A DNA stretch of 64,000 bases from Pocillopora verrucosa (taxonomy: Eukaryota; Cnidaria; Anthozoa; Scleractinia; Pocilloporidae). Both the position numbers and the translations under genes were made by a program. The DNA lies in NCBI RefSeq assembly GCF_036669915.1, contig NC_089318.1, forward strand, positions 5,627,849-5,691,848, written 5' to 3'. Under the pieces are notes generated by a model that saw only the letters and a list, made by a program, of their open reading frames with translations, was not told where the DNA came from and searched no databases. This document shows, in pieces, positions 27,546-29,303 of this stretch (the first letter of the stretch is position 1; the number at the start of each line of letters is the position of its first letter).

Positions 27546-28228
27546 GATGGAAAGGTTTACAGTCAAGTCGCCCGAGAGTCATCTTGCCCGAAGTCACGTA
27601 GCCCGAAACCTGAGTCATGTTGCCCGACATTTTAGTAATGTCGTCCGAAAAAAAAAGTCAAGTCGCCCGAAGAAACAAATACTAAAAAGATCAGAATTTT
27701 AGACTTTAAAAAAGGCAATAGGGTGGAGAAATTTTTTATCACTAAAGCGCTCTTTGTTTCCGACAACACCATGAAGATTCTTACAGTGTTGTTCGTTCCT
27801 AACAACAAAGGGAAACGTTGTTCGTTTCCAGTGTTACGGTATTTTCTCAACCGCCAGAAAGTTACAACTCGTACCAACTCAACTACTTTATTCAGTGACG
27901 TTATTATCTTACTACGGAGCGGTACCAATAACTAGCACAATAACTATTCACTTATCTTAGAGCCCTCTATAAAACTATAATCTCAGTGCACTACTGCACA
28001 ACTAACAGTTCTCTTCGAAGATCCTTGAAACTTATCGATATCTACCCAACTCTTCTCCAACGTAGCCTTCCACACGGCTGACAATTCCAATAACAATAAA
28101 GAATCCCAACGATTCACGCTCTCCGGCTCTGCACTAACACTAGCTTTGCTCTCAAAGAAAGGCTCACTCAAGAAAAGGCTATCTATAACTAATCGCCACT
28201 CCTTATTTATGTTTTACAAAATGGTTTA

Positions 28229-28241
28229 GAACATTCCAGAG
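28229..28241 (-). promoter_or_regulatory. Heat-shock-element-like site, proximal
   Basis: GAACATTCCAGAG: two full nGAAn/nTTCn units plus a partial third (GAG). It lies about 20 bp upstream (minus strand) of the TATA-like box of the solo LTR. Confidence 0.45.
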
Positions 28242-28272
28242 ATCTGTAATACAACTATTTTTAGTAACATTA

Positions 28273-28822
28273 AGGCCTATTTACACGGTACGACTTTGTC
28301 GCATGCGACAAGCTTACGACAGGCCTACGACATGACTTACGACAATTTACACGCGCACGACATTTTCACCTACGACATGCCAAAATCGCGTGCAATTCCA
28401 CTCGTTTCGGCCGCGGTCATTGTTTCAATAATTTGCAAGAGAAGGAAAAGAACCTCTTCCTCGCTCCACAGTGATATCATATTCTCTGTTTCCTCATCTG
28501 AGAATGTATTTTTCGCTTTGGAAGCAGTCTTCGACTTTCCGGAGGCGACTTCCTCCGCCATTTTGACGCAAGAAAATTTCACCTTCCTCCCCTACTCAGT
28601 AGAAATTTGTCACAAAATACGTCATTTTCTATCAATTTCGGCTACGATTGTCGCAGCGTTTTAAAACATGTTTTAAAATCCTACGACATTTTTCGTGACG
28701 TGCACGACAGTCGTAAGCGAGTGGTATGTTTGATTTACACAATACAATTCGTGTCGTAGGCGTGTCGTAGGCCTGTCGTAAGCTTGTCGCATGCGACAAA
28801 GTCGTACCGTGTAAATAGGCCT
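28273..28822. mobile_element. PIF/Harbinger-type MITE with MADF-like coding remnant
   Basis: 550 bp, flanked by TTA target duplications (28270-28272 and 28823-28825). Terminal inverted repeats exceed 55 bp: AGGCCTATTTACACGGTACG, then ACTTTGTCGCATGCGACAAG, continuing. TTA duplications are typical of PIF/Harbinger. The minus strand (28561 downward) encodes MAEEVASGKSKTASKAKNTF followed by SDEETENMISLWSEEEVLF, which reads like the start of a MADF (Myb/SANT-like) domain, a protein class encoded by autonomous Harbingers. The frame then runs into unrelated sequence, so this is an internally deleted derivative. Confidence 0.8.
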
Positions 28823-28864
28823 TTACATTGCTATTACATAATAAGAAATTATGCTGGCTAAGGG

Positions 28865-28927
28865 TTCTAGAAAGTTCCATTAAGAGTTATCAATGAGTCA
28901 GCATGACTAAGCGTTCTAGAAACTTCC
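28865..28927 (-). promoter_or_regulatory. Two canonical heat-shock elements, distal
   Basis: TTCTAGAAAGTTCC (28865-28878) and TTCTAGAAACTTCC (28914-28927) both satisfy TTCnnGAAnnTTC perfectly. They belong to a ~49-bp tandem duplication (GCTGGCTAAGGGTTC.../GCATGACTAAGCGTTC...). On the minus strand they lie upstream of the LTR's TATA-like box. Confidence 0.6.
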
Positions 28928-29303
28928 TCAATTCTCAATTTCGTAACACAAAGCACTCGCCATAACACCAGTAACAAAATGCAGCGCTGTTCGTTTGGTA
29001 TGTAATCGTTTCTTACTCACGGACGTTTCGTAAGCTTGAGAAACTTTTTCTTGGTTTCTAACAATACCATGAAGACTTTGACTACACAGAAATCGATCGT
29101 ATGCTCGGAATTGAAATATGTTTGAGTAACGATTCTTAAAGCGTTTTTCGTTTCCAACAACAAAGGTAAGCGTTCTCCGTTCTGACCAAAAAATGAAGCG
29201 TTGTTCGTTTGGTATGTACTTGTTCCTTACTCGTATTTCGTACGCTTGAGAAACTTTATCTTGGTTTGTAACAAAGCCATGAAGACTTTGACTACCCAGA
29301 AAT

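Follow-up and report, generated by a model that had tools for sequence, protein, structure and literature searches.

Whether a retroelement promoter in a coral genome may be built around binding sites of the heat-shock factor (HSF) is the question raised by the interval 27832-28967 of the window, i.e., the whole 64-kb stretch of DNA analysed here, in which an earlier note had proposed a long terminal repeat (LTR) with heat-shock elements (HSEs). Read in minus sense, the interval has been found to be the solo LTR of a Ty3/gypsy element, with a length of 586 bp once a nested MITE is left out. Considering this LTR together with its relatives elsewhere in the genome, we regard it as likely that the window holds a decayed member of a Ty3/gypsy family in which the U3 promoter was built around HSF sites and would be HSF-driven, through binding of HSF and induction by heat.

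The solo LTR and its promoter motifs

The boundaries at 27832 and 28967 have proved correct, as the LTR runs in minus sense from TGTTATGG to CCGTAACA, carries CCAG at either end and has an uninserted counterpart in the mirror arm of the inverted-repeat element around it, recognised from the alignment of the arms flanking the LTR position. Within this element (27592-30778), the LTR sits in the left arm and the LTR-free site lies in the right arm near 30540-30546. TG..CA ends and a target-site duplication (TSD), as expected of an LTR, have thus been observed here (CCAG, with the empty site), and a full-length relative on C5 has the TSD CTAT. The host element itself contains internal repeats and GTCAAGTCGCCCGAA-type tandem units at its tips. 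The features of the locus are the following.

27592..30778, unstranded: host element of the LTR, whose long inverted-repeat arms match imperfectly (repeats I1-I5, I7 and I8, and alignment)
27828..27831, unstranded: TSD CCAG, copy 1 (direct reading)
27832..28967, minus strand: solo LTR (ends, TSD, empty site in the mirror arm)
27886..27892, minus strand: poly(A)-signal-like AATAAAG (sequence)
28203..28210, minus strand: TATA-type box ATAAATAA (TATATAA in the close copy L006)
28224..28236, minus strand: HSE3, proximal, decayed here, sense GAATGTTCTAAAC (comparison with close copies)
28270-28272 and 28823-28825, unstranded: TSD TTA of the MITE (sequence)
28273..28822, unstranded: 550-bp MITE nested in the LTR, its terminal inverted repeats ~65 bp long (inverted repeat I6, arms 28262-28337 and 28758-28833)
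28865..28877, minus strand: HSE2, perfect three-unit, sense GAACTTTCTAGAA (core kept between subfamilies)
28893..28907, minus strand: block GTCATGCTGACTCAT (sense) between HSE1 and HSE2 (its first part among the top conserved blocks across subfamilies)
28914..28926, minus strand: HSE1, perfect three-unit, sense GAAGTTTCTAGAA (site perfect also in L006, L008, L009 and L011)
28968..28971, unstranded: TSD CCAG, copy 2 (direct reading)

The assignment of the entire interval to an LTR has thus been upheld except for the 550 bp of the MITE, which is presumably PIF/Harbinger-like. That the MITE could be a part of the LTR has been ruled out, as it is missing from five close LTR copies spanning the insertion site and has 226 candidate places genome-wide. 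Forty of these have been scored, and the near-full-length ones besides the window copy are 94-97% identical, so that the MITE family looks younger than the LTR family. The inverted ends of the MITE are rich in GTCGTA/GTCGCA repeats.

Regarding the promoter motifs, the two perfect TTCnnGAAnnTTC sites claimed earlier are present at 28865-28877 and 28914-28926, in minus orientation and upstream of the TATA-type box, and AATAAAG lies near the 3' end on the minus strand as had been described. The partial site GAACATTCCAGAG (28229) is likewise there and has been recognised, by comparison with close copies, as the decayed proximal HSE3, which reads GAATGTTCTAGAA in L006, L007, L008 and L011. The reported TATA-like box ATAAATAA has been located at 28203-28210 on the minus strand but looks like a mutated TATA box, since TATATAA takes its place in L006 and in many copies of a sister subfamily. 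The resulting order in sense direction is HSE1, GTCATGCTGACTCAT (presumably a Maf/NRF2/AP-1-like site), HSE2, the MITE, decayed HSE3, ATAAATAA and AATAAAG. As HSE1 and HSE2 start 49 nt apart in similar sequence, both may have arisen from a single local duplication and would then not represent two independent events.

Short motifs of this kind can occur by chance or in low-complexity sequence without any function, and the 64 kb indeed contain plentiful two-unit motifs (24 TTCnnGAA and 32 GAAnnTTC). Perfect three-unit HSEs in either orientation number 2 in the window vs a mean of 1.38 in 100 dinucleotide shuffles; the window overall is therefore not enriched in HSEs, and the unusual part is that both lie inside the LTR. 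For the LTR minus the MITE (586 bp), 0 of 5000 shuffles have reached two perfect HSEs (mean 0.0072).

The layout of a functional LTR promoter that the earlier note had seen is hence present in so far as HSEs lie upstream of a TATA-type box, but the window copy itself is damaged. It is a solo LTR, the MITE insertion parts its distal HSEs from the promoter, and HSE3 and the TATA box are mutated; consequently, this copy is a poor candidate for a heat response of its own and is probably inactive.

Close copies, a full-length element and a sister subfamily

The genome to which the window belongs (353 Mb in 52 contigs) has been searched with 424 bp of the window LTR, yielding 13 matches. One is the window LTR, six are close copies (L006-L011, identity 90-95%) and six are relatives (69-83%). 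All six window-type copies with a U3 (the window copy, L006, L007, L008, L009 and L011) contain at least two perfect HSEs, L010 being the seventh close match and devoid of a U3. Copies lacking the HSEs, which had been named in advance as evidence against the proposal, have accordingly not emerged as the rule: at least two sites are kept in 6/6 U3-bearing close copies and at least one in 15/18 insertions of the sister subfamily. Since their 3' flanks agree, L007 and L010 may go back to a single insertion that was duplicated. The LTR of L006 contains three perfect three-unit HSEs, a number reached by 0 of 5000 shuffles.

The full-length element on C5 has L006 and L009 as its LTRs; in it, a PBS-like TGGGGGCTTGTCTGGGA, presumably a tRNA match, follows the 5' LTR and a PPT-like AAGGGGGAGGG precedes the 3' LTR. 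A gag-like ORF gives a SCAN match of 26.6 bits, just below the cut-off of 27, and Pfam matches have been obtained for Integrase_H2C2 (4.7e-15), RVT_1 (1.3e-30) and RT_RNaseH_2 (3.5e-20). With its LTRs, PBS-like, PPT-like, gag-like and pol sequences, this relative has the composition of an LTR retrotransposon. Its frames are broken, and the domains follow each other in the order integrase zinc domain, reverse transcriptase (RT) and RNase H, as given here for the C5 element (L020).

204-848: ORF with the integrase zinc domain
1379-2332: ORF with the RT
2377-2917: ORFs with RNase H

The ORF 985-1419 of L020 has a weak integrase C-terminal match below the cut-off, and the catalytic core of the integrase has given no Pfam match in the broken frames of L020. 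The RT matches RVT_1 with no copia-type RT model listed, and copia RTs fall under a different Pfam model than RVT_1; an assignment to ONSEN itself (COPIA78), for which a Ty1/copia pol would be expected, has therefore been rejected. An integrase upstream of the reverse transcriptase has been described for the Gmr1 clade of Ty3/gypsy (PMC8220671), which the C5 pol resembles in its domain order; unlike in the present family, an HSE promoter does not figure in the passages on the Gmr1 clade (PMC8220671). Nested in the C5 element (L018-L019), in antisense orientation, is a non-LTR retroelement that has an endonuclease and an RT domain.

The two LTRs of the C5 element differ at 35 of 500 aligned positions (7%), and L009 has lost HSE3 and the TATA box through a deletion. 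RT places of the family have been sought among 599 candidates, of which 125 have been scored; besides the C5 RT itself, these comprise one 64% match with stops and five fragments of 58-69%, all other scored places being at most 39% identical. As the sole full-length pair found differs at 35/500 positions and few coding remnants occur among the scored RT places, the LTR family looks old. RT relatives of 39% identity lie at C4:28431715 and C8:14174345 within open frames of ~2290 aa, and judged from these frames other gypsy lineages look intact.

The sister subfamily has been collected with the L016 LTR as query (412 first-look candidates, 40 scored). This LTR has three perfect three-unit HSEs, two of which overlap as one four-unit site, and again 0 of 5000 shuffles have reached three. 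From 35 copies, 14 duplicates (11 + 3) and three truncated copies (L014, L015, L017) have been subtracted, leaving 18 insertions, the independence of which has been judged from their differing flanks. Twelve C6 copies (2.0-2.44 Mb) with common flanks have been counted as one insertion, as have four further C6 copies (21.8-22.0 Mb); to treat the C6 cluster as many independent insertions has not been adopted, since common flanks point to duplication of the host sequence. At least one perfect three-unit HSE is present in 15/18 insertions and a four-unit HSE in 9/18, three of the 18 being without a perfect HSE. Within the subfamily, the core of HSE2 has a conservation of 0.938 vs 0.861 for its spacer, which is at background (39 of 478 LTR windows score as high as the core or higher), HSE3 reaches 0.940 in the core and 0.944 in the spacer with an LTR window mean of 0.869 (28 of 473 windows equal or exceed the core), with HSE1 not rising above background (268 of 483 windows). 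Taken together, conservation of the HSEs inside the sister subfamily appears moderate.

A sharper picture has been obtained between the subfamilies. When L006 is compared with the 18 sister copies, the cores of HSE2 and HSE3 are 0.947 identical, their spacers 0.725 and the other aligned positions 0.598, which is mainly one comparison of two lineages, as the 18 copies are related by descent and conserved blocks serve as anchors for aligners. The template of core positions has been scored at 382 placements, each with over half of the sister copies aligned. A single placement ranks above HSE3 and is a one-base shift of it, and the six above HSE2 are HSE3, its shift and four within the final 57 nt of the LTR. 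GCTTAGTCATGCTGAC belongs to the blocks ranked next in conservation between L006 and the sister copies. HSE1 has not been retained in place as a three-unit site in the sister copy L047 (9/13 identical to L006), and of the block GTCATGCTGASTCAT the sister subfamily retains just GTCATGCTGA. A footprint of this kind would be expected if the source elements had been under selection for their HSF sites.

Genome-wide HSEs and a second Ty3/gypsy lineage

The four-unit pattern TTCnnGAAnnTTCnnGAA has 348 sites genome-wide vs 181 for its reversed control, so about half of all four-unit HSEs could be due to chance. The exact 18-nt four-unit HSE TTCTGGAATGTTCCAGAA, in contrast, has 46 sites vs 0 for the reversed control, and all 46 belong to LTRs of the first family (16 coincide with known LTRs and 30/30 others have been assigned by their fetched context). 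Duplication of host sequence has multiplied some of them, with at least five sites in the region C6 2.06-2.35 Mb and three in C6 21.8-22.0 Mb. Chance motifs have been rejected on the 0/5000 LTR shuffles and the 46 sites vs 0; with the core-over-spacer conservation between the lineages added, a chance origin appears very unlikely for the LTR sites, the abundance of two-unit motifs, the unremarkable window-wide count and the 181 control sites notwithstanding.

In the 30 fetched contexts, all counted without a shuffled control, TATAw follows within 45 nt downstream in 24, a further perfect three-unit HSE lies upstream in 21 and GTCATGCTGA is present in 11. These counts bear on the present state of the family. 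The HSEs could have been functional while the family was active, with all surviving copies silenced by now through mutation, methylation or loss of promoters; for the past this overlaps with the HSF-driven promoter that we favour, and for the present it differs. The few coding remnants, the 7% divergence of the LTR pair and the MITE and mutated TATA box of the window copy are in line with complete silence, but an intact HSE with TATAw at most 45 nt downstream in 24/30 of the fetched copies is not, and we consider such silence possible, though rather doubtful.

Assignment of the four-unit sites to families has covered 50 of the 348 (C1, C2 and the start of C3), a sample that is not random. Eighteen of them (17 contexts) belong to the first family and eight to a second LTR family, several being mutual duplicates; 15 of the remaining 24 stand alone, the others falling into three small groups of duplicates (4, 3 and 2). 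Judged from this sample, much of the four-unit excess could stem from the two LTR families, because the 24/50 left over are near the 26 predicted by the control ratio. Outside both families, a perfect four-unit HSE TTCTGGAATGTTCTTGAA has been noticed at four similar loci (L003, L004, L087 and L088; C1 0.69-0.87 Mb), and the ORF list of L003 has shown no recognisable gene, heat-shock genes included.

The second family (59 candidates, 40 scored) has an LTR of 229 bp with the ends TGTAGTGTGACC..CACACTTCA, in which the HSE TTCAAGAATGTTCTAGAA, GTCATGCTGAGTCAT, TATATAA and AATAAA follow each other. Its full-length copy on C9 has the TSD GTGAC, PBS-like and PPT-like sequences, and LTRs of 93.9% identity (14/229 positions differ), the 5' LTR having one change in the GTCATGCTGA block. 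The RTs of the two families are 29% identical over 159 aa. A module of HSE, 6-8 nt and GTCATGCTGASTCAT upstream of the TATA box is present in both lineages (the window-type subfamily and the second family), and GTCATGCTGASTCAT is presumably a Maf/NRF2/AP-1-type site. As two such distant lineages have this module in common, it suggests convergence or exchange between them. A wider reading, which we put forward tentatively and at somewhat less than even confidence, is that two distant Ty3/gypsy lineages have converged on, or exchanged, one stress-promoter module and carry much of the four-unit HSE excess, so that heat and oxidative stress together would fire retroelement promoters dispersed over the genome and spread heat-responsiveness through it.

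Real HSF sites do not by themselves imply a response to heat, as the elements might use HSF in germ cells or early development instead. Retrotransposons persist through expression in the germ line, HSFs have a role in animal gametogenesis, and the conservation data would fit such a use equally well. The GTCATGCTGA block next to the HSEs in two lineages, however, may rather point to a combined stress input, and germ-line or developmental use of HSF in place of a heat response seems unlikely to us.

Known heat-responsive elements, host genes and significance

For the favoured heat-responsive promoter, the U3 layout suggests how it would operate. Distal three-unit HSEs stand beside the GTCATGCTGA block, and 13-14 nt separate a three- or four-unit proximal HSE from the downstream TATATAA. 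Proteotoxic stress such as heat would release HSF1 trimers, which would bind the proximal HSE by TATATAA with the assistance of the distal HSEs, and transcription would begin inside the LTR at the TATA box. In past active elements, this would have supplied genomic RNA for retrotransposition and coupled replication to host stress; the mostly solo copies of the present would yield short heat-induced transcripts, or heat-responsive promoter or enhancer activity near host genes. Heat could plausibly switch on copies of the family in this manner.

The closest known parallel is ONSEN/COPIA78 of Arabidopsis, for which HSF binding and heat induction have been demonstrated and in which the strongest class is the four-unit (4P) element (PMC3907296, PMC5059998). 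Like in ONSEN, HSF-type elements occupy the LTR, here with a four-unit proximal site, and solo LTRs and fragments occur beside full-length copies (PMC3907296, PMC5059998). The HSEs lie upstream of a TATA-type box and are conserved across copies in the manner of ONSEN, three of the 18 sister insertions having no perfect HSE. Unlike ONSEN, a Ty1/copia element of plants, the present family is an animal Ty3/gypsy with few coding copies found and with a response to heat that is predicted from sequence. In the heat-responsive COPIA elements of Brassicaceae, HSEs are described as gained recurrently in separate LTR lineages (PMC5059998), and four-unit HSEs track heat induction in these and in ONSEN (PMC3907296, PMC5059998). 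HSEs in two separate LTR lineages, here of Ty3/gypsy, agree with that pattern (PMC5059998); in difference to the Brassicaceae case, the evidence here comes from DNA motifs and the two lineages also have the GTCATGCTGASTCAT block in common.

Among animals, Caenorhabditis Helitrons are described as holding substantial numbers of HSEs and likewise represent HSE-bearing transposable elements (PMC6927752), but they are DNA elements, and the HSEs found here lie upstream of a retroelement TATA box. Putative HSEs have been described in LTR elements of the fungus Cryptococcus, one in TCN12 and two in TCN3, and resemble the present ones in their location, the difference being that mobilisation at 37 C has been measured there and the present case is one of sequence (PMC12810828). 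For cnidarians, a heat study of Nematostella covers HSEs and transposons; its main text contains neither "LTR" nor "retrotransposon" (PMC13104882). Among the titles of open-licence PMC papers listed by our literature searches, none describes LTR promoters with HSEs from corals or other cnidarians. Heat-activated retrotransposons have reportedly been seen in the coral symbiont Symbiodinium, which is alike in combining the coral holobiont, heat and retrotransposons but concerns the symbiotic alga and not the animal.

If HSF drives these LTRs, the coral would have a retroelement counterpart of ONSEN, in which thermal stress leads directly to retroelement transcription. The placed loci and the simple motif would then allow one to ask whether bleaching-grade heat activates transposons, and the same loci whether LTR insertions spread heat-responsiveness to genes; HSE counts in the genome would partly reflect retroelement history.

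Some copies might, on the other hand, have retained their HSEs as selected regulatory elements that drive host genes. The twelve C6 copies with common flanks would agree with this, as would the L030 LTR, located where the gene for a rhodopsin-type receptor has its 3' end, and the window LTR, which points towards a same-strand receptor ORF ~1.06 kb off. The C6 copies, however, have multiplied through host duplication, the window copy is damaged, and the L030 LTR lies downstream of a receptor gene whose frame has an internal stop; we regard retention for host-gene control as very unlikely. The receptor genes of the window are the following.

22265-23365, 25803-26768 and 32612-33697, minus strand: three genes of rhodopsin-type receptors, each a single ORF (Pfam 7tm_1)

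The receptor ORF starting at 26768 is the one ~1.06 kb from the window LTR on the same strand. In L030 (547-1521, C6), the LTR begins in the end of the rhodopsin-type receptor frame and provides its last codons and the stop, and the flanks of L030 are found in eleven other C6 copies.
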